From: Candidatus Liberimonas magnetica
GTDB taxonomy: Bacteria; Elusimicrobiota; Endomicrobiia; Endomicrobiales; JAFGIL01
Direction of reading: 5' to 3'
Assembly (NCBI GenBank): GCA_020523885.1
Contig: JAJAPY010000004.1
Span: forward strand, 62,001-126,000
Length of the DNA: 64,000 nt
In this document: in pieces, positions 1-48,058 of the stretch
How positions within the stretch are numbered: the stretch's first letter is position 1
Layout: every line of letters starts with the position of its first letter
Position numbers and translations under genes: made by a program
Notes under the pieces: model-generated
Database searches by the model: none
What the model was told of the DNA's origin: nothing
Seen by the model: only the letters and a program-made list of their open reading frames with translations

Positions 1-440
1 CAATACTAAAGCCTGTTTCTTTTAACAATAGGGCTAATGGTTTATCCATAAAAATGACTTGTTGGCCCAGGAAAATTCCTCCCGTTTCTAATACCCTATT
101 CATTTCTTTGAATAGCTTTACAACAAGGTCATCAGGAAACAGTTCCGTACCGAGGGCATTTGAGTAAATCATTGATATCTGTCCATCATTAAACGGCATG
201 TCGCAGGCATCTGCCCTGTGCAGGACTATTTTGCTGCGCTGTTCTTCAGGCAGGTTTATCCATTTATTAAAGATATCCTTAAAATTATAGTGATCAAGTT
301 CTATGACATGTATTTTCCCGACATCCGGATATTTGTCTAACAGTACAAGTGTTTCTCTTAAGCTTGAGCCCGTTCCTATATGTGCAATTTCCTTTCCTTC
401 AATATACTGTGAAACAGGCACATCCTTCCTTTTTGTTTCA
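1..440 (-). other. Methyltransferase-like domain, cut by window edge
   Basis: EIAHIGTGSSLRETL looks like SAM-binding motif I (Gly6856 within the loop), with an acidic residue at the end of the next strand in HVIELDHYNF, then VLHRADACDMPF and a hydrophobic strand SMIYSNALGTELF. This order matches class I SAM-dependent methyltransferases. The domain continues beyond the window. Confidence 0.5.
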
Positions 441-3400
441 TAATACCGCAAATTACTAAATATTCTTTCTTCCGTATCTGAACTTCTTATACCCTCATCT
501 GTTAATTTAGGTAAACTTCTGTTTTCATATATATAAACATCAAATTTCCCGTTTTTAAATTCTAAATCAAAAGGAACGTTATTTTGTATCAGCATCTGAG
601 TTTTTTGTATTGCTTCATCTTTTGAAAAGGATTCTAATGATTTTTTCTCTGCAGGAAGTGTCATCGGAGTGAGCAGGTTTTGCGGGTGAATATTGCTGAG
701 CGCTTTAAATTTAATAACATACCCTATACCTTTAAGCCCGTATGCAAATATAACAATTATTTTATTAGCTAAATTGACAGCGCTATGAGCTACAGCATTT
801 ACTAAAAGTACGGGGAATAATATAGCTGTTTCTGCTTTTTGGTTGTCTTTAACAAGGTATGCTAACGGGATAAGAATAATCCCGGGTATCGCGGTAATGA
901 ATATTACGAACGGTATGGCAAAATACTTAACCCAGCCTTGCTGGAACTTACTGGTATATCCATGCTCGGCTATAAAACTGTTAATTGCAGGGCCTAACTC
1001 GTCACGAGCGTTTTTATCAAACCCTGCAAAGATGACGAGCCTTGTAATCTGAGTCAGCCTTAGCGCTTCGCGGCTCGGGCCGTTGAATTGCTCGTCTGCG
1101 ATATAGCGGGCCAAGAACACAAGTGCCGGCTTGTACCATTTATTGCCAACTTTTTCTTTCACCCATTTTTCAGCTACTCGGTTTTTCGGCAGAGTCAGAG
1201 CACCGGACGGCTGGCTAGTATTTTTTTCCTGTGATTTTAGCTGTGAAAGGCTTTCAACAAAATCTTTACCTAACCAATTTTTAAATTGTTCTGTATTAAA
1301 GACTTTAAGTAGGAACGCTTTTAATTCATCTGAAGCCCCAGGCTGGCGTAAAGCTGTTTCAATTTTTGCCATTAAAATCGTATAATCTTTTCCTTTGCTG
1401 GGAATTCTTGTATCTAAATATTCCTTTTTTGCCTGCAAATACTCAAAAATCCTATCTATTAATTCTTTTTCACTGTACATTTGTCTTAAAACATTTTGTA
1501 ATAATAGGAAATCTTCATTAATACTATCTTTCCATGTTCCCGGGTATTTGCCTAATACGTTATCTGTGAATTGTGCAAGCATGTATTTTGGATTTGATAT
1601 ATAATAGTATTTGTCTCCGATACACATCTTACAGGCATATTTCATTTTCTGTGAATCACTACCGGAACCTAAAAGGTCAACCAAGAACGGCTTATTTTTT
1701 CCCTGGACTATTTCCCTGGCCTCCGGGCTTAATTCTCCTAATTGAACCTCTCCTTGTTTAGCCAGGCCTCCATTTTCATCCATATATGTTCTAGTCGAAA
1801 CAATATCTAGATCGCCGATTCTTCTGGCAAATTTCTGCAGTATTCGTTTTATGTTTTCCGGTATTTGATAAATGGCAGGTTCTTGTAAATCCGAACTGCT
1901 TTTTTCGAGTTCTATAAATGAATCTGCCATACTTAAAAGCATAACGCTAAGCGATCCAGTAAATACATAGTTTACTTTGCCTTCACCATTCAGCTGCGGC
2001 CATTTAGATACAATTGAATCGGCTAATGCTTTAGCAGCAGTTTTCAACTTCCCTGTATTATTAGCCAGGGCTGGCACCGGACTATTATTTTCTGTATGGC
2101 TCTGTATCCTGACCAGGGCAGGCTCAGAAACACCTTTATAGCCAATTTCTGCAATAGGTTTTGCGCTTAGATATATTATGCAGGAAGCTTTTTTCAAAAT
2201 CTTCGCTTCCATTTTTTCCCAGCTGTCAACACCGTATTCATCAATATATTCAGCTTCATCAACAACAAAAGGCTTCCCTGCTTTTACAAAACTCAAGATC
2301 TCATCTTGAACGGCTGTAATATCATCGGCATGTGTCTGCAGGTTATAATAAGGATATCTTAAGAGTTTCTGAACTATATAGGTTTTGCCGGACTGTTGGT
2401 CTCCAACCAGATTTATAACTTTTTTTCCTCCGGCAACTAAGCCCAGCAATTCTTCTCTGGCCTTTTCCTGAGCTCTGACAAATCTGTCAGAAATAGTTAC
2501 TCTGATAAATATGTTACCAAACGGAGAAGTCCCACCTTTGACATCTGCCAATTGTGATTCATCAAAATTGGCTATATAATAAAAACCCAATGTTTGCTGA
2601 ACTCCCCGCAGGCTTTGAAGCGTTCCTTTATCAACTTTTGAAATATTCTTCAACAAAATTATGTGCTTTTTGTCACTATTTTTCATGACAAATTTTGAGA
2701 AAAGCCTGTTGAGTGTAATCTGTCCAACACGCTGTCCCTTTTCTATTTGCACTTCTATATTCAAATACTCCGATAAAACCCTTACAACCTCGCTTTCAAA
2801 ATCACTACTATTAAAATCAAATACAACAAATTCTATGCCGCTGGTTTTGTCTTCAGTAAGACGTTTTACAAAATAGTCAATGCCTGCACCGTGTTCAAGG
2901 GGCAAACCGACAGATTGGTTGAGATTATTTATTATTCTATATTTATAGATCCTTTCGTATTCTTTTTCGTCGTTATCTTCGTCTTTCATCGTGTCAGGCA
3001 TTGACTTAGTCATCGGTGCACGGGTAAAGCCTAAAGCGCCGCGGACCCTGTCTGCTAAATTAACCACAGAATGGCTTAGGATATTGACAGGCGCTGCAAG
3101 TATCCCTAAGCTTAGTATTCCTGAAACAGCCGTTGAAAATATCGCCATATCAGCATATTTTCTTAATATCTCTTTTTGTTTAGCGCTGTACTGGCTGCCA
3201 TCGGCATTTTTATGACCGTTTATAAATTTTTCTAACTCTTGGCTGTACTTAGTCTTTAGCTCTTTATTAAAAATACCGCCTATCCGCATGGCAGAAAGCT
3301 TTATTAACTCAGGCATCTCCAAAAGCGGAGCAAATAACAGTTCATCTGTCGTTCTTACCACGCCCTGGGCTACTTTTGGCAAGGATCTAAACTTTCCCTC

Positions 3401-6400
3401 GCCGATACTGTTTTCCAGTAAGCGGCTATCTGGTAGGGCCAGGGTTGAGAGAGCTAATTTGGCTTTCCCAAGCTCAGATCTTTTCATGAATTTTTCTAAT
3501 TCTTCCTTTGAAGAAAAACTCTCAGGCAGGTTTATATTTCTGTTTAAAACAACAAATTTTAGAAAATCAGCTTTTTCTTCATCTGACAGGGTAAATTTAT
3601 CACTATATCGTTTCAGGGCTTGTTTTACTTCAAATAACCTCTTTTGCAGGCTTACAAAATCTTTTTTAACGTATTCTATGCAATAATTTTCTTCAATAGT
3701 GCAAATCCCGCCGTTTAATAAGTTCTTAACCATTAAAGAATAAATATCTGTTTCGGATTGTTTATTGTATTGGGCTATATCTGTTATAACCGGATCACTT
3801 GAAAGATCAACCATAATATTGTACGAGCCAAAATCTTTTAAAGCATAACCTGCCTCGGATATTTTAATTACTGTTTCAACTAATTTGTCAATAAACTTTC
3901 CCGGCTGTTTTCCAGCCTCAGTAAGGCTTATTCCATACACTCTTTTCATTAAAACTGCATTATCATACAGCCTAACCGGCTTTACAATCCCAGGGATACC
4001 TGCATCTGTAAACGCTTTCATTATCTCAAATTCTTTTTTAACGTCATCTTTAGATATATCTGAAAGAAAAGGAATTTTAAGCACTAATTCTTCGTCCCTG
4101 CCCTTTTCCTTAACCCTTAACAGCACCCCGTTATATCCATAATTGAGCACACCGAGATAAATTAAATCCTTATCAATTTGAGAAGTAAGAACTGGCCAGG
4201 CGTTAACATGGTCATTTGCGCTTAGTAAATTATCAAGATACGACCCAAATATATCTAACTCGGAGGCAAAATCTTCATCTTTCTCAAGGATGCTTTTTTC
4301 ATACAATTCCCCATAAATATTCTTTATTCCAATGCTTAAGCGCGTGCCGGCTTTATAGTTTTTTATGGCTTTCTTTTTTATCTTTGCATAAAAAACCTTC
4401 ATCCATCCATATCCTCCTAACAACTGTTTGTTGCGCATAAAAACTTCAAAAAGGAACCTATCCACTTCTTCTATGCCTGTAGCAGGTGTTATTTGCAGTT
4501 CATATGAATTTCTATATGTAAATTTATATTTAATCTCGTTTTCCACTTCTAATATTTCTTTTGCATAATCATAAAACATTTTTTCATAATTGTACGACAA
4601 ATCGGTGTCCCACCCTTTAGCTTTTTTCTCTGCTTCTGTAGCAGATTCATATTCTTTTACTATTGCCTCAAGGCCTTCTTTATTCATATGTTCCAGCGCC
4701 CATTGATGATATAGGGTAAGCTGTTTCCTGTCACGGCTGAAATATTCTTTCTGCCTGGCAGCAGCACGCTGGTGAGGTGTGCGCGTATCTCCAGCTTCAG
4801 CCTTTTCCATGTGCTCTGTCCACTCATGGTCTATAACCTCGGCAAGCCTGAAATATCCTGTTCTATAAACATAGTGCGCACTTACTATTATTATTAGCTT
4901 ATCATTTATTTTTTTGCTGTACGCGTACATCCCTTGCGGCATGTCATATGAAAAGCGTAAATCAATCTTATCTGTTATTCCTCCCCTGTCATAAATTCCA
5001 AACTTTTTAAAGGCCTCAGAAACAGCACTTAAATCTACTGTCATTATAGGACTATTAATTACCCTTTCGATTAATTCGTCTGAAGGCTGTTCAATGTCCT
5101 CATCTGCAAGGCCCGGTACCTTAAGAGCTGCTGTTTTGCCTTTTAGCTTTGCATAATCTTCAAAAGTAGGCTTTGAGGTAATGACAGCAGGCTCGCCTGC
5201 CAATTGTTCAGTATTAGTTGCCTCTGGGGCAGGCATATCTCTGGAAGTTGTTTTATTAATGGTTAAACCTATTAGTGCGGATGCCTGGCTTTTATTTTTT
5301 CTAAGTGGTTTTACAGGTAATATCCTATTAAAATCTATGTCATCATCGCCCATAAATTTTACGCCAAATTCCGTATACGGATAAAATTTATTTTCTAAAA
5401 TCCATTTATACGTATGCCCCCTCAACCTGTCATACTCAACTTCATCTTGAACGTATACGTCCGGCAATGTGGAAAATTTTTTCTGGTCTATGCCTATTAA
5501 TTGGCCTCCGTCATTTACTATCAGCCAGGAGCGGATGCGCTTCGCATTTATATCTACTTCAGAAAGAGCCAAGACAATTTTATGATTTTCCCTTTCAGAT
5601 TGAATATTTTTTTCATTCCTTTCCATATAGGCTACGTCTAATACCAGGGCATAAGTATCAGGTGAGAAACCTTGAAAAGGTTCAGAGTATTGTATATTGT
5701 TTTTTTCATCAACCGCTATTAAATGCTGCCGGGGAGATTTTGACAGCCACTCTTTTACTAAATCATCCATTCCACTCAATTTCATATGCTGTGAATAAAT
5801 TTCTGGGACATTCTCAGACATGCGGCTGCCAGATCTGGCCATTGCATCGTAAACTTGGCTTAAATCTTCATCTTCAACCCTTGAGCCAAAAAGCATAGGA
5901 ATGTCCAAACCTGCATCTGACAAAAGCTCTATAATCTTTCTTTCAGTCTCAGCATCTAAAGGCTTATCAATGGAAAACACATATTTCTCATTTCTATCCA
6001 CTATGATAGATATTCCAATCCCTATCCGGGTATTTGGATAAGGCGAAACAAAAACACTGACTTCTCTGCCGTCTCTATCCTTGCCCAAAGTCCAGCGCTT
6101 TTCTTCGCCCCACATAGCCTGGGACTGGAAATTACTGCTGTTAAGCGCTTTTAATATACGGCTATGCAGGGACTTTGCCCTGTCGATACCAGCCTGAATT
6201 TCCTGAGCACTCTTAATTTCCGCCGGGGCAACATCAGTTTTAATTTCTTTTGTTTGCAGCGGTTCTTCTTTTTTGACTGGCTCATACCCATACCATTCAC
6301 TTAATATTTTATTCAACTGGTCACGAAGCACACCTTTGTTGCAGTTATAATACATGGTTTCATTTTTTAAACTGTCCAACTCCAACAATTTAGAAATTAA

Positions 6401-12400: not shown

Positions 12401-15400
12401 AAAATGTTTAAAATCAGGATAATATATTTCATTGAATTCATGCTCTTTAAAAAATTCGAATACAGCTTTATTATATGCACCGTAATCTCCGTTTATTTTT
12501 GCTTTTATATATAATAATAAAAGCACAAAGTACCTGGGAAACAGCAGTACGGGAAGAATTTCTTGTTCATCAAATACTATTATCCGTAATTGCATCTTTT
12601 CCGGCAGGCTGTTAAAACCCGATCGTCCAAAAGTAACTATTTTTAACATAAAATTAATAGTTCGCTCCGCTAAGTGGCTGCCGGTTAGTGATACAGCAAT
12701 AGGAAACAAGTCAAAGGTATTCCAACTTACATTGTTTTCTGCCTTGCGGTGTATTATTAGACTTGCCACAAATATTGCATCCGAGGTTTCAGGCTTTATA
12801 GCTATACTTGCCAGCATCCCTGCGTCTTTTGAATCATATTCATCAATGACATTCCCTTCATTAGTTTCTACTATAGTTTTGCCGGCTTTCAGATTTTTTG
12901 GAAGGTTCTGTGCCAATTGCCACATCTCATCTGCCAAACTTTCATACGGCTTTACCCCAAACCTGGCATATTGAGACTCAATATATTGTTTGTAAGCGGC
13001 CTGGTCCATCCTTTCATTGTAAAATGCTGCGGCTGACAATATCGTAAAATGCAACAGGTACCGGCCTATTGCATCCAGTTGTCTTTTCCTGTTGCCGGTC
13101 ATACTGTAATGCCCGTAGTCCCTCAAACCTTCCGTTGAGGCATTGGGATATGAAAACCATCTCCTTAACGTTCCAAGAGATATCCTGTCTATTGCTTTCC
13201 CCTCAACAAAATACAGCCCGTCAAACATAACATCTTTCTGCCTCTTGTGATACATCGCCTCGTCCCTGTAGATACCCTGCTGCCATAAATCCACTGCAAA
13301 ATCCAGAGATCTTGTCAGTCCTTCCTCTACTGCCAGCCTGCGGCTTTCCTTGTCTGCAACCTGGCCAATTAGATCTTCTCCGGTGACATACATAAAATTG
13401 TCCTCCGGAGCCCTGTACAATATTCCTAGCGCCCCATCAAGTCCTTCCGGCGCATTTTTCAGCTTTACAATACTTGTTCCGCTTGCCTTATCCGTTATTA
13501 CTATTGGAACACCTTCTCTATTTCTTACCCTTACAATACCTTCCTCAATAGCCTTTAACAGCGTTGCTTCTTTTATAAGCTCATCCATATCTGTTGTGCC
13601 GTTGCTTTCATCTAATTTCTTAAAAATATATACTCCTTCTCTGCCTTCTATCTGGAACCTGTACGTCTGGTCCATTACAGGCAGCTGCCTCTTTACTTTT
13701 CCTCCGGCTAACCTGCTAAAATCTGCTTCTACGGGTTGACTGTTCTTTGCCTTCATCCTTGCGCTGTACTGTCTGAACAGCCTGTTTGCTTCCTGTGCTC
13801 CATAAGGGGTAGCTCTTTTCTCAAACAGTTTATCCCTGTTTACTCCGACCTTAAACCATTTCTCTAATAAATCTCCAAACCGTGCTTTTTCTTTGTCCTC
13901 GGACAAATTTTCGTCTAATATCTTTTTTATTTCTGCCTTAAAATCTTTATTTTTATAATAAATAAAAAACTCTGCATATTTCAATCTATTTTCTAACCAG
14001 ATTAAACCTTCTTCATTCTTTACAAAATATTTTATCGCAGGTGAAGCATATTTAAGCAGATAATATGCATTTTCTCCTGAGGCCCTGCCAAGTTCAATTA
14101 AAACAGGCCAGTATTTTTCAAACCTGTCTCCAAATAACTCATTTATATTGGTAAGGACATTTCTGAACAGATCATCTGTATTTTCCCTGGATGCCTTGCC
14201 AAGCTCTACCAGCCCAGGCCAGTATTTTTCAAATTCGTCCTTAAACAGCTCTTTTACCGCAGGAATGCCGAATCTAAATAAATTATCGATATTTTCTCCT
14301 GAGGCTTTTCCTAATTCAAAGATTCCTGGCCAATATTTTATAAATTCATCTCCGAATAACTCACCCAGGTCAGGTATATCAAACATTAATAAATGTTTTG
14401 CATTTCTCCCTGAAATCTTGCCAAGCTCTACCAGCCCGATCCAGTATTTTTCAAACTCATTCCCAAATAACTCCTTTAACTCAGGAATCCCTGCTATAAA
14501 TAATTCATTTGTATCTTTTCCTGCTGCCTGGCCTAACTCCACCAATCTGGGCCAGTATAATTCAAAATTTTCTCCAAATATATTTTTCACTGCAGGAACA
14601 CCGATAGTAAATAAATCATTTGCATTTTCTTCTGATGCCTTGCCTAACTCCACTATGCCGGGCCAGTAGAATTCGAAGGCGTCTCCGAATAACCTCCGCA
14701 TTTCAGGAATACCAGAGAAAAACAATTCGGTGGCATTTGTTCCCGCAGCTTTATACAAATCTGCCCACGGTTTGTAACCGTATTGACCCGTAATTTCCTT
14801 AAACGGTTCCAAAGCTTTCATTATTTCAGTCTTGTTTTCAATAAATATCCTTGCCGCCTGTTCATCCATTTCTTCGCTTGTTGTGCCTTTTGTTTTGCCT
14901 TTTGTCATTACAGGAGCAATTTTGCCAGATTCTATCGTGCCTTTTTCTCTTGCTTGTTTATTGTATGTTCTGTGGCCGATGATTAGAAGTGCTATTGATT
15001 TTAAGGTAGGTATTTTAAGGCCGAATATGCTAAGTGTTGCGTTAAACGCTTCTTGCATGATTCCATTCATGCCATCAAGAAAATATTTAAAATCATAATT
15101 TGCTTCTGTGTAGCCGTGCTCTTCAAAAAACTTTATAACATCTTTTCTAAACCCTTCGTAATCCCCGCTTCTTCTTGCAATTATATATTTGACCAGCAAC
15201 ATTGAGAAGTTCGGTAATTCCACAAAGGGAGCTATTCTCTGTTCATCACAGGCTCTGATACTGTCCTGCACACTATCCGGCAAATCGTTAAAACCTTGCT
15301 TGCCAAAACTTGTCACTTTCTTATATAAATCTACAGTTTTCTCAAGCCAGCGGCTACCTGGCATGGCTGCAAACGAGCTTTGTCTTATAGCTATCAATCT

Positions 15401-18400
15401 TGCATTGTTATAGGGCGCATGTTTACCTGCTTCGTCCGCCAAGGCATACATTTGTTCCGATTCTTCAAGCTTCCCCTGTTTTTCATATAATTTCCCGACA
15501 GCATTATAAACAGTCTCAAGCTTACTCCATATAATCTCACGGTTAATAGTTTCATCCACAACAACTTGGCTTTCCATTAGCATTTTCTTATATGATTCTA
15601 TCGCCAGTTCATACATCTTTGTTGCTTCTTTATCATTACCCTGTTTCCTAAATATATCTCCTAGCTGAAATAATACCTTCCCTAGCCCATCTCTCGCTTT
15701 TACAAATTTGGAATTAATATTCAGGGCTTGATTGCATGATTTTATTGCCTGTTCATATATTTGTATTGCTTCTTTCTTATTACCCTGTTTTATAAAAACA
15801 TTTCCAAGATGAGTATATGTCATTCCAATGTTATATATCGCAGTTGTAAATTTAGGGTTAATATTCAGTGCCTGTTTGAACAATTCTATTGATAGTTCAT
15901 ACATTTGGATTGCTACTTTGTCTTTTCCTTGCTTCTCAAAAACATCTCCATGACTAGAGTACAACACCCCAAAGCTATGAAATACGGAATTTGTTACAGC
16001 ATTATGTAATTCAAGTATTCGTACCCTTTGATGAAGCTTTGTTCCATAAAACTCCTTTTCCAAAACAGCTGTTTCTTTAAGTCCTAACTCCACTTCTCCT
16101 GATTTTAATATTTTAGTCGGAACAGGGCCGGACCCTTCAGGATATCTTGCATCAACCAGATAATACGAACCATCTTCTAACCTGCAAAGAACTGCAACAT
16201 GACCTTCTTGATACCCGCTATCAGTTTCTGCTACATTTAAACCATATACTTTAAATTCGTATTTCTCCAATATCCTGCCGCAAAGATAACTCTGCATAAC
16301 ACATAACATATGTTTTGTTTCAAGAATCGTAGCTGGCTGGATTTCATTTAAACTAGCCAGTAATTGAGCAGAAATACCGAGTGCCTTTGCTTCAGCTCTC
16401 AATGCTTTTCTTAAGAGCGCTACCTTCTCTGTAGCGCTAAATAAATCATCTTCAAAATATCTTTCAACTTCTTTTTGGACTGTTTCTATTATTTGCTTCT
16501 GCCTTTCAACACCTTTTACCTTATCAGGAATATTATCTGTTATTCCCTTTATCTTGCCAAGTAAAGTCGGCAGCAGTTCATCGGGAACCTTTTCTTCCCA
16601 AAGCTGAGGTTTTGTTTTTATTGTTTTCAAAGTGTTGCCGCCCTGCTCAAGTACCGTTGACTGAAGTTCCCTGTACGGGCTTGACAACTCATAGGCTATA
16701 TTTTTTGCCCATTTTATTTTGTAATACTCAAATAGCCTCTTTTTAAACCCGGGCCTAGACTCCTCTATATCTGCGGACCTTGCCTTTATATATTCTATCC
16801 AGTTCTTGTCTATACCAAGCCAGCTCTCCGCCAGCAAACGCATATCTGCTGTAAGTTCTATCGCACCCTCTTCTTTAATCAGTGCCCTGAATCCCGATAT
16901 AACCGTTCCTAAATAATCTAATACTTCTTTGTCTATATCTTTATCTTTTTCCAAGCTTTGTTTTAACTCTTCAAGATACCCTATGGCGCTTCTCAAATAT
17001 TTTGTCATCATATTCAATCTGTTCAAACGATCTTCGCTTTGTATGCCAAACCCTGTATCAAGCTGTTTTAATAAATCTATCATTTCCAAGAAGCTTATAT
17101 CTCTTGGTATCTTTATTGTCTTTTCTATCTTAACTTTCCTTGTCTTTTTTGCCTTGGGCATACGCGGTATAATAGCGCTGTCTACTTCTATCGGCTCCGG
17201 ATAAGTTATTATGAAATTATCCTTATCCCAATCCTTCCTTTCTATAAATTCAAAGTTTGTATTGCCCATTAATTCAGCCAGGCTCTTTATAATCATTTGC
17301 GGCACTTGTTCTGTAAACATCTCCCGCTTGAATTCTTCAGATAGATCTATTTCTTTTTCACCGGCGTACATGAGCTGTTCCGGGCGCACCACTGTATCAT
17401 AAGGCTTCTGGCTCAAGCCCTCTGTTTCCTTAACTGCTTCTTTTCCTGCTTCTATAAGTAACTCTATGAACAACGGCTGGTGCGGGTATTTTCGGTGTGC
17501 TTTTTGGTAAGCTGTGTACGGCTGGTTTCCCTGTTTAATTAACTTATTTATACTAACCAGTTCCCTTATCTCTTCAAAAGCAAACTCATCTATGTGGCTC
17601 CTGCCAAATACGCCTTGTAATTCTTTTGCCCTTTTATCGTTTAAATTAAACAATAAATCCAGGTAGCCCTGGTATATGTAAAGCCGGTATATTGTCCCGC
17701 CGGTTTGAGCGTCCTGTTCCTGGGCAAAATATGCCGGAATACCTGTTATTCTGTTTCCCACTCTCTTGTAAAATAAACTCCCGTCTTTTATGGGCACTAC
17801 TTCAAAATTATCCGCACTAAGGCCGAGCTCTTTTTTATTCTTGTCTTGAGTTATAAACCTTTTCTTCAGGTCATTCGCATGCATGTCCTCTACGGTAACA
17901 GCTTCTGCCAGCTTCACAGCCCACTGGCCAAGCCCTAATCCCATAACCTGCAAAAATTTGTTTAAATTCAAACTTAAAGCAGCAAATGCACCGGCACCGG
18001 GCTTAGTTGCTAATTTCTTGAATAGACCCATCAGTGAAGGCGAGATGTGGTTGATGTATATCTTTCCAGTAAGGATAGAATCAATTTTTTCCTTATCATT
18101 AGGCGCGTATACTACCAAGACATTGCTTCCCGCGGCCTCAAGGTCTTCTTGTCTGCTGTTCGGGATAATCCCTATCACAGGCTTTAAACCGCTGTTAATA
18201 GCATTAGACACATGAAAAGATATAGTAGGGTCAAATGGCATGATAGACTTCAGTTCCCATTTCTGCCATAAGAGGTTAAGCGGGATACCTGTTTGGGTTA
18301 AGCTGAAAATAACATCGAAGTCTTCAGAGAGCAGTTCCTGGCCATCTGATATTTTTTTAGATATCTCACGTGTAAGGACAAGCCTTAAGTAGTCTTCCAG

Positions 18401-20935
18401 CTCCATTTCTTTTCCGTTATGCCTTTCACGATAAGCCTGACCTATAAGCCCTTCTTTTGTTTTCCTGTAATCCCCTGCCCTGGAGTAAGCTGCAAGAAAA
18501 TCTATTTTATCTGAGTGAGTTACGTTATACTGGTTATAATAATTCTTTACAACTTCAATTGTCTCGGGGCCGGAACCAATCCCCGGCTTGGTCGCTATCC
18601 AATAGCAGAAAAGTATGGTGGGAAGTTTCCTATTTGCAAGTTTAAGCATAACTGCCTTAAGCTGTTCATAGATAATATTGAATAAACCCGGTTTAAAATT
18701 GTCTTCCCAGGTCCTGGGGAATTTATTGGTTCTATTTGTTAAGATAGCCCCTGCTTTTTCCGGTTTTTCGCCGTCTGTTTCTCCCACAATCACGGCTTTT
18801 GACGGGTTATTTATTATCAAATTAAATTTATTAGGTTTCGGGGCCAGGGAATCATTCCCGCCCATTTGTTTAGACGTTGCTGTCTTTACTAAATCAAAAA
18901 CATCACTGGCTTCCAAAGACTGCATGAGATGGTAGCGCCGCTGTTTTGTCTTTTCGTCATATTTAAGTGCTAAATTAAATTCACTGAACTTAGAAACCCC
19001 GTTTTTATCCGCGACAAACACCTGTTTGTATAATTTGCTCTGGCCTTTTGCATTTGTATAGTTAAATGTAACGGTTAATTGATACTGGAGAGTTTTCTCG
19101 TTTTTACTAATTTCAGGTTTTATGTTGTCTGTACTGGCAAATTCGATAAGCAGCTTTTGTATTAGCTCAGCAGGTATTTGTTCTTTTACTGCTTCGGCAA
19201 AAATAACATTTATTGCATTTATTAATTCCTCGGGTTTTGCCTGGCCCTGCTGTAAAGAGGCCGCGAAGGATTTTAATGCAAGGCCGCTGCTAAACATCTG
19301 GCTCTGTTCTTGAAGCAGAGTGTTGTAAATCAGCTCTGAGGCCTTTGCATCTTTTGAAACATTAGGTGTGACTACAAGATAAGATATGTTTTTTTCTTTT
19401 AAGAGTTCTGACAGCCCCAGCGTATGGAATCCGCCTGTTACAAGAACAACTATTTCACCTGCATTATCAAGCAGTTTTTGTATGTCTTTCTCACTATTTA
19501 AAGTTTTACCAAGGCCCTTGGCAGTGTCCGGCCGCGGGTAGTTTAAAGATGGCTCTGAACCGGTTATTTTGCAGTTTTCCAGCAAACATTCGTTTCTCTT
19601 AAGGTTAGCCCCATAGTACTCATCGAGCTGGGTTATATAGGGTTCCAGCCGGGCATATCTGTTGTTTCCGAGATATTTAGACCACAAAATCTTAAAATTC
19701 GCCTCATTGGCTTTTATGAACTTGTAATCTTTATGAGTTGCTTTATACGAGAGGAAGCCATCAAGGCAGTTTAAGAACTGGCATAAGAAAAGGACTTCCT
19801 TCTCAGCGGTTTCTTCTGCATATACTGATTTTATTCCATTAATGAGTTTCTTTTCTTCGTCCATCAACTCTGCAGGATTTATGTTCCGGGTTGTTTCAAG
19901 GTAAGCAACAAATTTTTCAAGCTGGGGAAAGTTTTTCAAAAGGTCATATCTGTTTTCTTTTGCTATTTTTGAAATACATCCGTAGAGTTCGCCACCATCG
20001 GTAAAATTACTCGTTTTGCCCGCCAAAAGGCTGTAAGCGCTGTAGGGAAGCTGTTGTTTCAAATAAGTTAGAAACTGCCTTAATTCAACCGCTAATTTCT
20101 TATAGTTGATATTATCCGAAGATTTAAAAGAATTTATATACCTGTTCAGGTTTTCAAATCTTGAAATATTTAATCTTGATTTCTGTGCATAAGTTAGAAG
20201 GTTTTCATAATATTTCTTTGAATTTATCCTGCCTTCTTTGTATTTTTGTAGCAGGTCAGCCAGCTTTTTATTTTTTGAACTTAAATACGCATTCTCGATC
20301 GGTTCAATACTGTTTCTTAAATCCAGTATTATATCCTTGATATTGCCTTGCTCCTGCTGTATGCCGGCTAATCTTATTATATTTTCAGTATGAAAAGTTT
20401 CATCGTCTGCTCCGGCAAGGATCTGCGCTTTGCCGGATTGTATCGAATAATATTCAGATCCGTTCAACCTGCCGTTATCAAGCAATGCTTCAATTATATT
20501 GTTTTTTATTGCGCTGTTTTTAAGCCTTATGAGGTTTGATGTGTCAATCTGGCCGGATGCACCTTCAATGTATACTTTATTTAAATGATACTTGCTGTCT
20601 AAGTTTGATAATATTTTTGAAATATTCCGCTGAACTTCAGAATGGCAGTGCAGATCCTGGATATTGATAACTACAGTATTTGAGTTATTAGTTCGCAGTT
20701 CTGAGCCAATTCTAAACCCTGGTTCTTTAAACTCAGAACTCAGGACTCCGAACTCAGAACTATAAGCCTCCGTTACCCTTCCAACATTAGAGGGCAGGGA
20801 AAAGCTGTCAATTATCTCTTTAAAGCCTTTTATTTCTCTTTGCTTTTCCACAACCGCTTGTAAAGGCTGGCTTATTATGGATGAGTATACGAAACAGATA
20901 AGTGTGATTAGAGCCGTTAATTTTTTTATCTTCAT
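1..20935 (-). CDS. Giant exported multidomain protein, C-terminus beyond window (at least 6978 aa)
   Basis: One minus-strand frame is open from the ATG at 20935-20933 to the left window edge, where it still reads sensible protein; I saw no in-frame stop. The N-terminus (MKIKKLTALITLICFVYS...) is a typical signal peptide: lysines, then a hydrophobic core. Domains recognised, by residue: Tiki/TraB-like 85-530; transglutaminase-like about 1535-1620; TPRs about 1650-1840; seven 37-aa repeats about 2057-2300; HEWTEH plus kinase-like module A about 3360-3930; radical-SAM cysteines 4162/4166/4169; module B about 5260-5820; hydrophobic stretch near 5920; P-loop ATPase about 6160-6250; membrane-like segment about 6660-6750; methyltransferase-like from about 6830. 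Long helical stretches between these are unassigned. No Shine-Dalgarno is visible; a terminator-like hairpin ends 17 nt upstream of the start. Giant fused proteins are known in Omnitrophota; the function of this one is unknown. An exported protein carrying ATP- and SAM-dependent folds is odd. Confidence 0.9.
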   Translation of the reverse strand, partial: MKIKKLTALITLICFVYSSIISQPLQAVVEKQREIKGFKEIIDSFSLPSNVGRVTEAYSSEFGVLSSEFKEPGFRIGSELRTNNSNTVVINIQDLHCHSEVQRNISKILSNLDSKYHLNKVYIEGASGQIDTSNLIRLKNSAIKNNIIEALLDNGRLNGSEYYSIQSGKAQILAGADDETFHTENIIRLAGIQQEQGNIKDIILDLRNSIEPIENAYLSSKNKKLADLLQKYKEGRINSKKYYENLLTYAQKSRLNISRFENLNRYINSFKSSDNINYKKLAVELRQFLTYLKQQLPYSAYSLLAGKTSNFTDGGELYGCISKIAKENRYDLLKNFPQLEKFVAYLETTRNINPAELMDEEKKLINGIKSVYAEETAEKEVLFLCQFLNCLDGFLSYKATHKDYKFIKANEANFKILWSKYLGNNRYARLEPYITQLDEYYGANLKRNECLLENCKITGSEPSLNYPRPDTAKGLGKTLNSEKDIQKLLDNAGEIVVLVTGGFHTLGLSELLKEKNISYLVVTPNVSKDAKASELIYNTLLQEQSQMFSSGLALKSFAASLQQGQAKPEELINAINVIFAEAVKEQIPAELIQKLLIEFASTDNIKPEISKNEKTLQYQLTVTFNYTNAKGQSKLYKQVFVADKNGVSKFSEFNLALKYDEKTKQRRYHLMQSLEASDVFDLVKTATSKQMGGNDSLAPKPNKFNLIINNPSKAVIVGETDGEKPEKAGAILTNRTNKFPRTWEDNFKPGLFNIIYEQLKAVMLKLANRKLPTILFCYWIATKPGIGSGPETIEVVKNYYNQYNVTHSDKIDFLAAYSRAGDYRKTKEGLIGQAYRERHNGKEMELEDYLRLVLTREISKKISDGQELLSEDFDVIFSLTQTGIPLNLLWQKWELKSIMPFDPTISFHVSNAINSGLKPVIGIIPNSRQEDLEAAGSNVLVVYAPNDKEKIDSILTGKIYINHISPSLMGLFKKLATKPGAGAFAALSLNLNKFLQVMGLGLGQWAVKLAEAVTVEDMHANDLKKRFITQDKNKKELGLSADNFEVVPIKDGSLFYKRVGNRITGIPAYFAQEQDAQTGGTIYRLYIYQGYLDLLFNLNDKRAKELQGVFGRSHIDEFAFEEIRELVSINKLIKQGNQPYTAYQKAHRKYPHQPLFIELLIEAGKEAVKETEGLSQKPYDTVVRPEQLMYAGEKEIDLSEEFKREMFTEQVPQMIIKSLAELMGNTNFEFIERKDWDKDNFIITYPEPIEVDSAIIPRMPKAKKTRKVKIEKTIKIPRDISFLEMIDLLKQLDTGFGIQSEDRLNRLNMMTKYLRSAIGYLEELKQSLEKDKDIDKEVLDYLGTVISGFRALIKEEGAIELTADMRLLAESWLGIDKNWIEYIKARSADIEESRPGFKKRLFEYYKIKWAKNIAYELSSPYRELQSTVLEQGGNTLKTIKTKPQLWEEKVPDELLPTLLGKIKGITDNIPDKVKGVERQKQIIETVQKEVERYFEDDLFSATEKVALLRKALRAEAKALGISAQLLASLNEIQPATILETKHMLCVMQSYLCGRILEKYEFKVYGLNVAETDSGYQEGHVAVLCRLEDGSYYLVDARYPEGSGPVPTKILKSGEVELGLKETAVLEKEFYGTKLHQRVRILELHNAVTNSVFHSFGVLYSSHGDVFEKQGKDKVAIQMYELSIELFKQALNINPKFTTAIYNIGMTYTHLGNVFIKQGNKKEAIQIYEQAIKSCNQALNINSKFVKARDGLGKVLFQLGDIFRKQGNDKEATKMYELAIESYKKMLMESQVVVDETINREIIWSKLETVYNAVGKLYEKQGKLEESEQMYALADEAGKHAPYNNARLIAIRQSSFAAMPGSRWLEKTVDLYKKVTSFGKQGFNDLPDSVQDSIRACDEQRIAPFVELPNFSMLLVKYIIARRSGDYEGFRKDVIKFFEEHGYTEANYDFKYFLDGMNGIMQEAFNATLSIFGLKIPTLKSIALLIIGHRTYNKQAREKGTIESGKIAPVMTKGKTKGTTSEEMDEQAARIFIENKTEIMKALEPFKEITGQYGYKPWADLYKAAGTNATELFFSGIPEMRRLFGDAFEFYWPGIVELGKASEENANDLFTIGVPAVKNIFGENFELYWPRLVELGQAAGKDTNELFIAGIPELKELFGNEFEKYWIGLVELGKISGRNAKHLLMFDIPDLGELFGDEFIKYWPGIFELGKASGENIDNLFRFGIPAVKELFKDEFEKYWPGLVELGKASRENTDDLFRNVLTNINELFGDRFEKYWPVLIELGRASGENAYYLLKYASPAIKYFVKNEEGLIWLENRLKYAEFFIYYKNKDFKAEIKKILDENLSEDKEKARFGDLLEKWFKVGVNRDKLFEKRATPYGAQEANRLFRQYSARMKAKNSQPVEADFSRLAGGKVKRQLPVMDQTYRFQIEGREGVYIFKKLDESNGTTDMDELIKEATLLKAIEEGIVRVRNREGVPIVITDKASGTSIVKLKNAPEGLDGALGILYRAPEDNFMYVTGEDLIGQVADKESRRLAVEEGLTRSLDFAVDLWQQGIYRDEAMYHKRQKDVMFDGLYFVEGKAIDRISLGTLRRWFSYPNASTEGLRDYGHYSMTGNRKRQLDAIGRYLLHFTILSAAAFYNERMDQAAYKQYIESQYARFGVKPYESLADEMWQLAQNLPKNLKAGKTIVETNEGNVIDEYDSKDAGMLASIAIKPETSDAIFVASLIIHRKAENNVSWNTFDLFPIAVSLTGSHLAERTINFMLKIVTFGRSGFNSLPEKMQLRIIVFDEQEILPVLLFPRYFVLLLLYIKAKINGDYGAYNKAVFEFFKEHEFNEIYYPDFKHFKKEIRKIMEDSLGELFRVFSFSIFTLLKKSLEITNYIKSKKENIKISAPFLDKLTPAGKARRINDNLYGMLSKDDSLASVADVRRLIENARIKIVDESELFWFKDNSIREDFWYDKTQKGSVLWQAELDKNGRLEIRLSSREAAAVQQGNEEGLNLNFLAGSIVLAYHTDPARKARKEPDSLPNITRKDAEFFRQIAKSLDKHMLVTGRVGMTENLAQRRYKGAHLFAEAIKNSPNPSISETAPSKLTDFKVFYAMLNNHTGQEKLDILDSLGMFEIAADTDLQYIKQLRLSSGMAELDVSLRDTISTRELNWTNFALFISNRLDKLTEERLRKYFANKDFVFDYYNLFLYYFRRDPYGATFSPDGSVRVSDSEKPLKQAAFEALKKELVNDLKAEHDEETLMRFLEKCDLAIVGEETFTEIKIASTGLKKIVKKVANESGTKYYIRLNYSIIDDLANGKPASSTFLRALEEELQEVLAEVKQSDMDLRLGTARLGSMKLSAPVPLPAIDTGSEIAGSAAALKKPGLEDEDIERPSKRSIIGIITSRYKTKVDFRAVSQVFTKVGIKDRKEITDKIDIYFTDKLPDGMQAYGKKLGDRLAIIVDRDYISPKRLEGTAYLRLAEVIDHEWTEHMTKAEARDKRTDHQRAAARQKQYFSGSRKQLTQYHLWVLEHMNKEQLAGLVNEYESLSNKDKKAKGWDTGLLNNYEKMFLEFAKERIAVEDEIKIVKMIGWEARIMPATGIEKVDRFLFEIIHRDEIMYFSKDCVKTYYLEIRKKVVDNYKKGRKLDDGVPALYRDLLESNILEKDEILSHFGESNIDIVVDGYKEFLSDLLSTNKDWKLLSFEIDKNLVYLGVLGYGTKALVLRVKERGSDEELALKTPFGSYSIKSQYDVMDNLDKAGIEGVVKPVRPYDKAILMKKVNGIDLEKAGKQPLKFIEKLNEIIMKITEEGYILEDFDSQNVMVDSSGNPVIIDTTYKYAGKQDIYNLILQNFQRGVLSIEKDYCNEYGTEGFVSIEERLNEVDAVLHRSSSVSEQQKIDLLKFAILNRHVKLPGSFNSGAHLEEFISGSKRADQMAGEPAVLISKNSLEDYAKLKGKDVSQLTEKELEEAALEYAPIAEKAEIERIFRLKSIPIIGKILAWYLINRFLNAHRPAGINNDEWNKRKEILRGGLSFIENTVNTIVDSSGPVDRQMLSKTAGLAAGAMLGTGVKAQYTKEVLQAMIMSSMLKGLDLTGINLSSLTKEDLANIAAHTAWNLTHSPEERLSTLEQHNPYETEETIKVKGLIDEIRYSQESVKHYSRAPDVLPIRNTKAPCSVGCAWCYLNRPLLAQIRKQEQLTAPSLDPKTVSDWISGLMDMGYNVYVCGEETFDSPETFNLILDEYIKVRNQRISAGQKVTSFEFITAGKWFIEHPEAVDGFFKEINEKLGDKKDIFIAMSWDTSKVDNFSRLYQIPKEEVYNRMAQTIYLFRKNFPDIATQKVNLVAHDFGNDREGKREERINAFVAELDNRLQSFNDGKKPADGYYSIDRDRPINLLNRGNILWAIKEGRLLPGDFKTLYSAWKGCAENQLAPRFEYEPTIEAYEGRIAVSANFPELWRWNVDAENLKERVFETPFHNPMIRTWMDINEGGDEVRYASNYKLPGFAMSLIPELADVYVPEDGFADVLMSFVCSDYVLKHKIALLYTLDSLFNEVMSGKIEIEKMSPELVSYLLDEEIVKAYFIYLLNYSSNDDKKKFAGYTHTLLFENAKLDESVKPEERFASCLKEVMFPRLAKAGVFGEEKISFDTIKTKSLGPLRQKPVFPTPAGLAKPVVSPINLDWPAQNTEAEAKMSELLEAIKQINTSYSVEGNRFDDRLRQPYKELLKILPEIPILNQAEKAISTVLDSILACRACRASGPSYLFDAIAELAKRTKLFNKSFAYMVCDELLRQSSFVQDERAERILECIFTVLSRVDYPDKVLERKLYDFLIGSICEYKGYTTVSNIKEVLSRLPSTVNTQLISKLLELDSLKNETMYYNCNKGVLRDQLNKILSEWYGYEPVKKEEPLQTKEIKTDVAPAEIKSAQEIQAGIDRAKSLHSRILKALNSSNFQSQAMWGEEKRWTLGKDRDGREVSVFVSPYPNTRIGIGISIIVDRNEKYVFSIDKPLDAETERKIIELLSDAGLDIPMLFGSRVEDEDLSQVYDAMARSGSRMSENVPEIYSQHMKLSGMDDLVKEWLSKSPRQHLIAVDEKNNIQYSEPFQGFSPDTYALVLDVAYMERNEKNIQSERENHKIVLALSEVDINAKRIRSWLIVNDGGQLIGIDQKKFSTLPDVYVQDEVEYDRLRGHTYKWILENKFYPYTEFGVKFMGDDDIDFNRILPVKPLRKNKSQASALIGLTINKTTSRDMPAPEATNTEQLAGEPAVITSKPTFEDYAKLKGKTAALKVPGLADEDIEQPSDELIERVINSPIMTVDLSAVSEAFKKFGIYDRGGITDKIDLRFSYDMPQGMYAYSKKINDKLIIIVSAHYVYRTGYFRLAEVIDHEWTEHMEKAEAGDTRTPHQRAAARQKEYFSRDRKQLTLYHQWALEHMNKEGLEAIVKEYESATEAEKKAKGWDTDLSYNYEKMFYDYAKEILEVENEIKYKFTYRNSYELQITPATGIEEVDRFLFEVFMRNKQLLGGYGWMKVFYAKIKKKAIKNYKAGTRLSIGIKNIYGELYEKSILEKDEDFASELDIFGSYLDNLLSANDHVNAWPVLTSQIDKDLIYLGVLNYGYNGVLLRVKEKGRDEELVLKIPFLSDISKDDVKKEFEIMKAFTDAGIPGIVKPVRLYDNAVLMKRVYGISLTEAGKQPGKFIDKLVETVIKISEAGYALKDFGSYNIMVDLSSDPVITDIAQYNKQSETDIYSLMVKNLLNGGICTIEENYCIEYVKKDFVSLQKRLFEVKQALKRYSDKFTLSDEEKADFLKFVVLNRNINLPESFSSKEELEKFMKRSELGKAKLALSTLALPDSRLLENSIGEGKFRSLPKVAQGVVRTTDELLFAPLLEMPELIKLSAMRIGGIFNKELKTKYSQELEKFINGHKNADGSQYSAKQKEILRKYADMAIFSTAVSGILSLGILAAPVNILSHSVVNLADRVRGALGFTRAPMTKSMPDTMKDEDNDEKEYERIYKYRIINNLNQSVGLPLEHGAGIDYFVKRLTEDKTSGIEFVVFDFNSSDFESEVVRVLSEYLNIEVQIEKGQRVGQITLNRLFSKFVMKNSDKKHIILLKNISKVDKGTLQSLRGVQQTLGFYYIANFDESQLADVKGGTSPFGNIFIRVTISDRFVRAQEKAREELLGLVAGGKKVINLVGDQQSGKTYIVQKLLRYPYYNLQTHADDITAVQDEILSFVKAGKPFVVDEAEYIDEYGVDSWEKMEAKILKKASCIIYLSAKPIAEIGYKGVSEPALVRIQSHTENNSPVPALANNTGKLKTAAKALADSIVSKWPQLNGEGKVNYVFTGSLSVMLLSMADSFIELEKSSSDLQEPAIYQIPENIKRILQKFARRIGDLDIVSTRTYMDENGGLAKQGEVQLGELSPEAREIVQGKNKPFLVDLLGSGSDSQKMKYACKMCIGDKYYYISNPKYMLAQFTDNVLGKYPGTWKDSINEDFLLLQNVLRQMYSEKELIDRIFEYLQAKKEYLDTRIPSKGKDYTILMAKIETALRQPGASDELKAFLLKVFNTEQFKNWLGKDFVESLSQLKSQEKNTSQPSGALTLPKNRVAEKWVKEKVGNKWYKPALVFLARYIADEQFNGPSREALRLTQITRLVIFAGFDKNARDELGPAINSFIAEHGYTSKFQQGWVKYFAIPFVIFITAIPGIILIPLAYLVKDNQKAETAILFPVLLVNAVAHSAVNLANKIIVIFAYGLKGIGYVIKFKALSNIHPQNLLTPMTLPAEKKSLESFSKDEAIQKTQMLIQNNVPFDLEFKNGKFDVYIYENRSLPKLTDEGIRSSDTEERIFSNLRYYETKRKDVPVSQYIEGKEIAHIGTGSSLRETLVLLDKYPDVGKIHVIELDHYNFKDIFNKWINLPEEQRSKIVLHRADACDMPFNDGQISMIYSNALGTELFPDDLVVKLFKEMNRVLETGGIFLGQQVIFMDKPLALLLKETGFSI
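2180..2450 (-). other. P-loop ATPase domain
   Basis: NLVGDQQSGKTYIVQKLL is a Walker A motif (K6184), and PFVVDEAEYIDEY about 40 residues later is a Walker B (D6226, E6227). LSAKPIAEIG follows in a sensor-like position. This fits an AAA-like ATPase that couples nucleotide hydrolysis to work on a partner; the exact family is unclear. Confidence 0.7.
3480..5150 (-). repeat. HEWTEH plus kinase-like module, copy B
   Basis: Copy B starts near LKVPGLADEDIEQPSDELI and repeats copy A in order: RLAEVIDHEWTEH (first H at 5370), T-x-HQRAAARQKEYF, ATGIEEVDRFLFE, then a kinase-like fold with VLNYGYNGVLLRVK, LVLKIP (K5620), AVLMKRVYG hinge, and D5701, N5706, D5719. The spacing D-x4-N-x12-D equals that of the catalytic loop and metal-binding Asp of protein kinases and aminoglycoside phosphotransferases. 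Both copies keep every catalytic residue, so both may be active. Confidence 0.8.
7860..8460 (-). other. Radical-SAM-like domain
   Basis: The stretch KAPCSVGCAWCYLNRP places cysteines at residues 4162, 4166 and 4169 (codons ending at 8450, 8438 and 8429), the C-x3-C-x2-C signature that binds the 4Fe-4S cluster of radical-SAM enzymes. The aromatic residue before the last Cys is also typical. About 50 residues on, VYVCGEETFDSPETF resembles the Gly-Gly-Glu strand of the family. Substrate unknown. Fusion of such a domain within an exported giant protein is unusual. Confidence 0.65.
9150..10850 (-). repeat. HEWTEH plus kinase-like module, copy A
   Basis: Copy A begins near KKPGLEDEDIERPS and carries RLAEVIDHEWTEH (first H at residue 3472), a T-x-HQRAAARQK stretch, and ATGIEKVDRFLFE. 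A kinase-like domain follows: a VLGYGTKALVLRVK loop, an LALKTP lysine strand, ILMKKVNGID hinge, and catalytic D3802, N3807, D3820 (D-x4-N-x12-D). It ends with AGEPAV, a serine-lysine stretch and LEDYAKLKGK, a linker reused before copy B. The whole block aligns with 3480-5150, so the module was duplicated within the gene. Confidence 0.8.
14035..14765 (-). repeat. Seven tandem 37-residue repeats (111-nt period)
   Basis: Residues about 2057-2300 repeat a unit of the form ELGKASGENANDLF, then a short GIPAVKELFG segment, then DEFEKYWPGLV. Six copies are clear and a seventh is degenerate (ends near 14035). The copies differ in sequence, so this is an old expansion rather than a recent slippage. The repeat also keeps the opposite strand open over 14148-14669, which I read as a shadow. 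No known repeat family came to mind; a helical solenoid is likely. Confidence 0.85.
15420..15995 (-). other. TPR array in giant protein 1
   Basis: Several 34-residue-like helical pairs follow the transglutaminase-like domain. Recurring features are GDVFEKQGKDKVAIQMYE, GNVFIKQGNKKEAIQIYE, GDIFRKQGNDKEATKMYE and GKLYEKQGKLEESEQMY: the G-x-x-x-x-K-Q-G and A-x-x-x-Y pattern of tetratricopeptide repeats, here with longer spacing that includes ALNINPKF-type turns. Probably a protein-protein interaction scaffold. Confidence 0.75.
16076..16333 (-). other. Transglutaminase-like Cys-His-Asp domain
   Basis: Residues about 1535-1620 contain HMLCVMQSYLCG (C1545, C1552), then GHVAVLCRLEDGSYYLVDAR with H1579 and D1595. 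A Cys at a helix start, a Gly-His-Val strand and a Val-Asp-Ala strand about 16 residues later are the catalytic triad layout of transglutaminase-like/SirB1-type domains. TPRs follow directly, as in the SirB1-type architecture. A peptidase or amidation role is possible; activity is inferred. Confidence 0.55.
19346..20683 (-). other. Tiki/TraB/ChaN-like domain in giant protein 1
   Basis: Residues about 85-530 open with VVINIQDLHCH (D94, H96, H98), followed by a strand ending in IEGASG (E124). The region closes with VTGGFHTLGL (H504). An early D/E-x-H after a hydrophobic strand, a following Glu-Gly, and a late Gly-x-x-His-x-x-Gly-Leu is the order of metal-site motifs in the Tiki superfamily (TraB, ChaN, EreA-like). 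The middle is a long helical insertion. Assignment is by motif order only; a profile search would settle it. Confidence 0.45.
20730..20761 (-). repeat. In-frame short repeat (SSEF ... SSEF) near the N-terminus of giant protein 1
   Basis: The plus strand reads actcagaact, then a variant, then actcagaact again, encoding two SSEF units at residues about 59-69. The composition resembles the short noncoding tandem motif next to pdxA (22665-22752), suggesting a repeat element captured in frame just after the signal peptide. Confidence 0.4.
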
Positions 20936-20988: not shown

Positions 20989-21468
20989 TTAAAGCCTTTT
21001 AACCCTATACTTAAACATAGCACTATTGTCAATGGCACCCCTCGGCAATAGATACAGCATGCATATAAATAGCAGAAAGATGAGTAAATTCCTCCATTTT
21101 TCCGGGTAAAATTTAGTTAAGCCAGGGTCTGTAACTTTGGATTTAGCGTATATCAGAAAAGTCATATCCGGACATGTTTTCCACATCGGGGATAGATTGC
21201 TTGTTGAAGTCCCGCAATATAGATTGCTTGCCTGGCCCTGTTTGGTTTCTTTTGTTTTATCGGATTTATCCTTGCTTAAAGGGAAGGTTTGAGCTCTGGC
21301 TGTATTTATTGAAAGGTCTATTAAAGTACATAAGGCTGTAAAAGGATTGCAGCTTGTTTTCAATGCTTCTTCAGAAGTAGTGTTGGTTTTTGGTTCTATA
21401 GTAAAAAGTGAGACAAAAGCATTAGCTGTTAAGCATAAAACTATTAATAGCACCAGCTTATTTTTCAT
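20989..21468 (-). CDS. Small exported protein, 159 aa, unknown function
   Basis: The protein starts MKNKLVLLIVLCLTANAFVS, a clear signal peptide or anchor. It has a polar, lysine/threonine-rich middle with four cysteines (SCNPF, LCTL, YCG, TCPDM) that could form disulfides outside the membrane, and ends with one hydrophobic segment (LLIFLLFICMLYLLP) and a basic tail. It may therefore be a secreted domain held by one or two membrane passes. I do not recognise a family. A GGGG-containing stretch sits a few bases before the ATG and a good promoter precedes it. The giant gene follows after a hairpin, so the two may be co-transcribed by read-through. Confidence 0.7.
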   Translation of the reverse strand: MKNKLVLLIVLCLTANAFVSLFTIEPKTNTTSEEALKTSCNPFTALCTLIDLSINTARAQTFPLSKDKSDKTKETKQGQASNLYCGTSTSNLSPMWKTCPDMTFLIYAKSKVTDPGLTKFYPEKWRNLLIFLLFICMLYLLPRGAIDNSAMFKYRVKRL

Positions 21469-22659: not shown

Positions 22660-22664
22660 AATAT

Positions 22665-22753
22665 TGACTTTAGACTACAGACAACAGACTGCAGACTTAA
22701 TTTATTTTTTCCTTGTCCTTAGTATGGTGTCTCAAGTCTTAAGTCTGAAGTCT
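22665..22753. repeat. Imperfect inverted repeat of AGACT-type units between pdxA and the SurA-like gene
   Basis: Short units of the type agactacagac fill 22665-22700. gactgcagacttaa (22687-22700) pairs with ttaagtctgaagtc (22739-22752) with one mismatch over 14 positions, leaving a 38-nt AT-rich loop. It looks like a small noncoding dispersed repeat and could fold in the mRNA between the two genes. Confidence 0.55.
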
Positions 22754-22757
22754 TTTA

Positions 22758-23810: not shown

Positions 23811-23832
23811 ACAAATCCTCCCAAACTTTTTA

Positions 23833-47989: not shown

Positions 47990-48058
47990 ATGGCGCATGT
48001 AATAAGCAAACAATGGTCTAACCCGGAATTTGCAATAGGCTTTGGAATTCGCTGCTAG
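47990..48058 (+). CDS. Possible 22-aa small ORF convergent with giant gene 2
   Basis: ATG at 47990 is preceded by GGAGG at 7-8 nt spacing, and the frame reads MAHVISKQWSNPEFAIGFGI, then two residues and TAG at 48056-48058, overlapping the giant gene's stop on the other strand. Upstream, cctccggct and agccagagg (about 47905-47940) can form a stem enclosed by gctgc/gcagc. The strong ribosome site and structured leader are suggestive; a chance hit is quite possible. Confidence 0.25.
   Translation: MAHVISKQWSNPEFAIGFGIRC

Follow-up and report, generated by a model that had tools for sequence, protein, structure and literature searches.

The DNA examined here, hereafter the window, is a stretch of 64,000 nucleotides of the Candidatus Liberimonas magnetica genome (assembly GCA_020523885.1, contig JAJAPY010000004.1, positions 62,001 to 126,000). 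It corresponds to G000:C4:62001-126000, where G000 is this genome (3.39 Mb in 29 contigs; 97.8% complete). The left part of the window holds the N-terminal 55% of a giant protein, giant A, which is encoded on the minus strand at window positions 1..20935 and continues beyond the window to G000:C4:45028 (window -16972), with a C-terminal end of ...ATRIASVEALKSAA. The initial annotation, made from the window only, had described a minus frame open from the window edge to an N-terminal signal peptide and proposed that the frame be extended leftward to its stop. This extension was performed on the contig and bore out the open frame, with the 6,978 codons reported at that time being a product of the window-edge cut. 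The stop-bounded frame was found to span G000:C4:45028-82998 (window -16972 to 20998), a length of 12,656 codons from stop to stop, without interruption (zero internal stops and zero N). Starting from the likely ATG at window position 20935, the protein is ~12,636 amino acids in length, with the remainder beyond the window accounting for 5,660 residues. Of 252 sliding windows, 251 favored this frame under a codon model trained on other genes; thus, a joined frameshift is not indicated. An assembly artefact is also unlikely, as similar long frames arise independently across many assemblies. Giant A falls in the size class of giant bacterial proteins (a single uninterrupted frame of >5,000 codons with coding signal) and is confirmed as a real single frame of nearly double the length reported earlier.

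Common head and C-terminal tag

The N-terminus of giant A (MKIKKLTALITLICFVYSSIISQPLQA) is Sec-signal-like. A predicted Sec signal peptide or signal anchor was located at 20855..20935 (minus strand, as for all features of giant A below), where an n-region of KIKK is followed by a hydrophobic stretch and a small residue at the presumed cleavage site, an arrangement conserved in the head alignment. The common head follows at 19271..20854; residues 6-560 of giant A comprise this signal and a domain of ~470 amino acids, and it is this N-terminal part of ~555 residues that members of the family have in common. When 51 heads were aligned, residues Q93, D94, H96, E124, G125, G501, G502, and H504 were invariant, forming the motifs QDLH, EG, and GGxH; the invariant H, E, and H are presumably equivalent to the known catalytic residues of Tiki/ChaN/EreA proteins. 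An AlphaFold2 model of the head was of good quality by its scores (predicted local distance difference test [pLDDT] of 84.8 and predicted template modeling score [pTM] of 0.81). When this model was compared with the PDB by Foldseek, nothing significant was retrieved, with the erythromycin esterase EreC, its relatives, and ChaN included in the compact globular matches among coiled coils (E 0.4-3.4). At the profile level, PF04187 (ChaN, Tiki superfamily) matched 3 of 13 distant heads (best 3.2e-5) and was not among the 25 families listed for 32 near heads, while a PDB sequence search with the head gave no meaningful match. The head thus resembles the Tiki/ChaN/EreA superfamily in its motif layout (QDxH, EG, GGxH), in the weak profile match of distant heads, and in weak fold matches, and differs from it by a large helical insertion and by fusion to giant bodies. 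Overall, the head is probably a divergent Tiki/ChaN/EreA-like domain. In distant families (L205-L222), a motif of FWxxRR was found to be conserved in the mature N-terminus right after the signal peptide; this motif was absent from the Endomicrobiales heads.

The C-terminus was also found to carry a common sequence, as most closed family frames end in ...[IVLM]xxA[A/G]. This tag pattern fit 22 of the 909 frames (at least 150 codons) in the stretches analyzed first, and all 22 were family frames or parts of them. Since the pattern was written after the first tails had been seen, the stretches obtained later serve as a fair test. These included 11 closed giants, two of which were already known; among the nine new ones, six fit the pattern strictly and two came near to it (ILKSA and ILASA). 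Within G000, the tag was detected in 11 of 14 closed frames, and similar ends (IKRLLSAG and IKKILGAV) were observed in same-class relatives. An S41 tail protease was considered as the reader of the tag and found to be uninformative, being single-copy in genomes with or without heads. On contig JAQTSO010000020.1 (L128), a frame of 1,502 codons starts with a head and ends untagged, and the tag is found on the frame that follows (1,161 codons); the two probably derive from a single giant, divided by a frameshift that lies either in the genome or in its assembly.

Bodies and their exchange between members

The bodies that lie between these ends were compared among family members. When two blocks of ~3,000 amino acids from the giant A body were searched against 40 same-order genomes, only a few matches were obtained, which were partial and mostly limited to one or two modules, compared with the many matches of the head. 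Isolated modules of giant A were found to recur at other positions in the giants of G000, including (i) residues 1205-1827 in C10, (ii) residues 10885-11385 in C12 at 46% identity, and (iii) residues 6582-6736 in C1 at 51% identity. Exchange was clearest between the giants of two Endomicrobium-group genomes (G022 and G024), which share 73% identity across residues 1-654 and 55% across the ~650 residues at the C-terminal end; the middles of ~2,400 and ~3,900 residues have no detectable similarity. Analysis of the sibling bodies by Pfam revealed carbohydrate and nucleotide enzymes as the commonest enzyme types, with matches to GH2, GH77, GH94, amylo-glucosidase, phosphorylase, phosphofructokinase, PPDK, phosphoribosyltransferases, and adenosine and cytidine deaminases, as well as protein kinase, radical SAM, lipase, subtilase, DnaJ, HEAT, and TPR. 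These comparisons show bodies that are largely unrelated in sequence between members, with the middle replaced as a block between conserved ends. The initial annotation had read the order of modules in the single frame as a self-contained modification machine, an interpretation that is rejected, as neither the set nor the order of the modules is conserved and near-orthologues swap the whole middle. The conserved unit is instead the head plus tail, which is invisible from one window, and an architecture of shared head, exchangeable body, and tail is well supported.

In the body of giant A, the modules within the window were located as follows, from the N-terminal side onward. A transglutaminase/papain-like Cys...His-Asp motif (CVMQSYLC, GHVAVLCRLEDGSYYLVDARY; 16121..16333) was identified by motif only and lies within the module common to paralogue C10. 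TPR repeats (15371..15958; TPR_12, 1e-15) are followed by copy 1 of a spacer element of ~160 amino acids, termed R (14858..15376), by tandem repeats of 37 amino acids (13994..14833), and by a SidJ-related pseudokinase-like domain (12989..13678), which is a weak assignment (NF033874, 3e-8, far under the family cut-off). After copy 2 of R (12218..12694) comes an HExxH region joined to a Bud32/APH-like kinase with K, D, N, and D kept (9185..10882), and then a radical-SAM-like region (7271..8503) recognized by its CxxxCxxC motif only, with no family or PDB match. The HExxH-plus-kinase block is duplicated (residues 3357-3922 and 5261-5826 of giant A), with the second copy at 3473..5170 being ~52% identical to the first. 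Copy 3 of R (3002..3487), an AAA-type ATPase with Walker A (GDQQSGKT) and Walker B (1751..2653), copy 4 of R (743..1204), and a class I S-adenosylmethionine (SAM) methyltransferase with an HIGTGSS motif (5..553) complete the part within the window; the fifth copy of R is past the window edge. The remaining 5,660 residues include HD, xylose-isomerase-like TIM barrel, glycosidase-like, M50-like protease, alpha/beta-hydrolase, cytidine-deaminase-like, DPP III-like peptidase, and HAD regions. Thus, of the domains listed in the initial annotation, the kinases, AAA ATPase, methyltransferase, and HExxH motifs are present, while the radical SAM is limited to a CSVGCAWC motif without a family match.

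The catalytic motifs kept in giant A include the K/D/N/D of two APH/Bud32-like kinases (a third kinase is degenerate-looking), Walker A and B of the AAA ATPase, GxG of the methyltransferase, HD, the metal ligands of the TIM barrel, HExxH with D of the M50-like protease, GxSxG of the hydrolase, HAE and PCxxC of the deaminase, the M49-like HExxH, and DxD of the HAD domain. These motif assignments draw in part on the general hallmarks of the families. A PDB search of single body modules recognized only the DPP III-like peptidase (6eom, 5e-12), an entry which we take to be DPP III and which is itself titled MutT/NUDIX family protein; the radical SAM, glycosidase-like, SidJ-like, AAA, and transglutaminase-like regions had no usable match in this search. 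A structure model of the duplicated HExxH-kinase module, based on two sequences, was unusable (pLDDT 39.6) and was not used. The ratio of nonsynonymous to synonymous substitution rates (dN/dS) was ~0.18-0.35 in the body pairs with measurable dS and ~0.16 in one head pair, with dS saturated for the remaining pairs. As judged by these ratios, the body modules are under purifying selection, with catalytic residues mostly kept.

A second family member, giant B, is represented in the window by its C-terminal part (48055..64000, minus strand), which ends in ...TLLIQSAA. Giant B runs off the right window edge (G000:C4:110055-156045) and meets frame C, which bears a head, at a scaffold gap of 100 N flanked by repeats of 59% identity. 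Together with this frame on its right, giant B may form a single protein of >15,000 amino acids. The genes that flank giant A are ordinary housekeeping genes: a RimI-like acetyltransferase gene follows it, and upstream on the same strand (window 21721-24735) are pdxA and two genes for SurA/PrsA-like peptidyl-prolyl isomerases. The surA-pdxA genes are a common housekeeping pair and were not used as a link to giant A. A gene directly upstream (window 20989-21468) encodes a predicted exported protein of 159 amino acids that has a membrane segment at its C-terminus and matches no Pfam family. The stretch between this gene and that of giant A contains an inverted repeat with T's after it (GCCCGTCC...GGACGGGTTTTTT-like), resembling a terminator. 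Rfam and tRNA scans of the window gave no match.

Occurrence of the family in Elusimicrobiota

The head was detected at the front of 18 long frames in G000, each of 2,423-12,656 codons, some of which are ended by contig ends. With the headless giant B included, the 19 frames amount to 130,908 codons (393 kb), or 11.6% of the genome. Among the relatives, counts are of head matches rather than heads, since one head can yield several (24 matches for the 18 heads of G000). Of 60 same-order genomes, 36 had matches (a maximum of 26 in one genome); in a phylum sample of Elusimicrobiota, 60 of 248 genomes did. Divergent heads gave matches in ten genomes from outside the class; the six that were examined closely, from other families, had 18-72 matches each, with frames of up to 12,444 codons. 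A scan with the head alignment, using one genome per GTDB species, retrieved 290 stretches. The best 80 of these 290 were from Endomicrobium, Endomicrobiellum, Ruminimicrobiellum, Proruminimicrobium, and unnamed Endomicrobiales; all 80 belong to the Elusimicrobiota, class Endomicrobia. The organism is accordingly assigned to Elusimicrobiota (order Endomicrobiales), and the Omnitrophota context in which the initial annotation had placed the protein is rejected. In a same-class genome, two head-bearing giants (L216 and L217; G117:C35:14001-38500) are adjacent on the same strand, which suggests a tandem duplication.

The distribution of the heads was found to vary with lifestyle. Endomicrobiellum, which is intracellular (PMC11257099), has heads in 9 of 28 genomes (median 0), compared with 26 of 31 for the other same-order genomes (median 13; p=1.8e-7). 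Few of the heads listed carry stops, and one that does is from an endosymbiont. No head was detected in G014, an Endomicrobium-group genome of one contig and 1.6 Mb that is very likely Endomicrobium proavitum, the genome of which is 1,588,979 bp (PMC4505116).

Possible location and role of the giants

The initial annotation had proposed a giant exported multidomain protein and had seen a topology puzzle in it. Both points are supported, as the domains of giant A, including ATP-, SAM-, and Fe-S-type modules, are found behind a predicted N-terminal signal. It had left the choice between an anchor and export undecided; here, the signal peptides predicted throughout the family, the cysteine-poor bodies (0.41% cysteine vs 1.01% in 62 other genes, as expected of an exported protein), and the Tiki/ChaN-like head favor export over a cytoplasmic body. 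With a probability of roughly 0.55, we consider the giants to be a Sec-exported family of head-body-tail proteins with exchangeable enzyme bodies that act outside the producing cell; their cellular location and role are what we infer from these features. The N-terminal signal, as suggested by its sequence, would take the chain into the Sec pathway. The first folded unit would then be the Tiki/ChaN-like domain, as supported by its invariant catalytic-type residues, and this head is probably an extracytoplasmic hydrolase or metal-binding domain needed by every member. The recurrent tag ...[IVLM]xxA[A/G] may be read by a common envelope machine for sorting, anchoring, or trimming. As the comparisons show, catalytically intact modules duplicate, shuffle among paralogues, and are replaced as blocks between the ends. 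The bodies would act outside the producer on matter from other organisms, be it prey, protists, competitors, or debris, with the cofactors for ATP-, SAM-, and nucleoside triphosphate-type modules drawn from opened partner cells. Bodies acting on outside material would favor rapid diversification and be dispensable in a host cytoplasm.

Several findings weigh against this interpretation. (i) The hydrophobic segments of giant A are no more numerous than in shuffled sequences, so hydropathy gives no topology beyond the N-terminal signal. (ii) In ordinary cells, modules of the ATP, SAM, radical-SAM, and metabolic types (phosphofructokinase, PPDK, and phosphorylase) are cytoplasmic. (iii) The lack of a head in free-living E. 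proavitum (very likely G014) implies that the family is dispensable outside of cells too. (iv) The tail is short, 3 of the 14 closed G000 frames are without it by the strict pattern, and the ends found in distant families are mostly QA, QQ, or AA, so tail conservation is loose there; moreover, no machine reading the tag was found. More tentatively, and with somewhat less than even confidence, we propose an export system across the phylum Elusimicrobiota in which a Sec signal plus Tiki-like head and a C-terminal tag bracket a swappable payload of thousands of residues, with both ends recognized by an envelope machine and new extracellular enzyme arrays generated by a swap of the middle.

The main rival to an extracellular enzyme role is injection. 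Here, the two ends would bring the body into the cell of a partner, whether protist, bacterium, or archaeon, and the modules would act separately once released by proteolysis. Such a route would account for the ATP-, SAM-, and nucleotide-type modules, the intact motifs of which make sense only in a cytoplasm, for the SidJ-related, kinase, deaminase, and DED-type modules of the family, and for the internal peptidase-like modules, module arrays, and rapid turnover. We regard it as unlikely, as the family is mostly lost in the intracellular Endomicrobiellum, no injection machinery or autoprocessing site was identified, and the many carbohydrate enzymes fit digestion better than toxicity. MARTX toxins, on which this explanation is modeled, are one exported chain with an array of enzymes, as are the giants; however, giant A has a Sec-type signal rather than type I secretion, and no Pfam match to RTX repeats or to an autoprocessing cysteine protease was found in it. 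Slightly less likely still is that the N-terminal stretch is an anchor, leaving the body cytoplasmic or looped through the membrane as a membrane-bound metabolic assembly. The metabolic and ATP/SAM-type modules and several strong hydrophobic stretches in the body are compatible with an anchor, yet the positive residues before the hydrophobic stretch predict N-in, C-out by the positive-inside rule, AxA-like sites are present past this stretch in many members, cysteine is depleted, the head is from an often extracytoplasmic superfamily, and the bodies are not conserved as core metabolism would be.

Two further explanations are improbable. A classical polymorphic toxin system for kin competition, with an immunity gene for each member, is largely refuted: the giants share with such systems (PMC3482391) a conserved N-terminal trafficking end, an exchangeable payload, shuffling, and expansion into many paralogues, but they have no common immunity gene, their payload is internal and of thousands of residues, and the extreme C-terminus is a conserved tag where a variable toxin would be expected. 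The genes that follow the giants were compared for ten members and are unrelated to one another; several encode ordinary proteins (RimI-like acetyltransferase, CheY-like regulators, NupC-like transporter, and endonuclease III, as named by eye). The least probable is neutral accumulation, with genes fused behind an exported head under weak selection to give functionless bodies. While the patchy distribution, the loss in several lineages, and the odd mixture of modules would fit, the dN/dS of ~0.2-0.35, the retained catalytic motifs, the near absence of stops in the listed heads, and tails that are conserved after thousands of variable residues are all counter to it.

Huge proteins are already known to abound in Elusimicrobiota (PMC11573180), and in Omnitrophota, predation has been connected with giant proteins that combine different enzymes (PMC10066038, PMC12419801). 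The huge proteins reported for Elusimicrobiota, Omnitrophota, and related phyla (PMC11573180; PMC10066038) are similar to the giants in being multidomain, encoded in single frames of >5,000 amino acids, and enriched in Elusimicrobiota, with proposed roles in adhesion, predation, and wall degradation. These reports differ from the present analysis in describing prevalence and domains, with no Tiki/ChaN-like head, C-terminal tag, or body replacement. The gigantic Omnitrophota proteins with lipocone domains of the Skillet clade (PMC12419801) likewise are chains that mix methylases, peptidases, signaling modules, and membrane segments, for which an anti-prey use was proposed; they are from another phylum, and a common head and tail are not described there. 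In general Pfam scans of giant A, which included no dedicated lipocone profile, no lipocone domain was matched. The family is apparently undescribed, as its head, tail, and body exchange were not found in the literature compared, to which the 2023 bioRxiv preprint of West-Roberts et al. (cited in PMC12057145) does not belong.

Earlier handles on giant proteins were few, as the bodies look unrelated and have few annotated domains. The common head and tail turn the scattered giants of Elusimicrobiota into one recognizable family, open to counting, tracing, and testing, and provide short sequences for tagging, fusion, and deletion. More than one tenth of the G000 genome belongs to this family, which intracellular endosymbionts have largely lost and which the genome that is very likely that of the cultured E. 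proavitum lacks; thus, it is tied to mode of life. If one machine reads both ends, that machine would represent an undescribed export or anchoring pathway.
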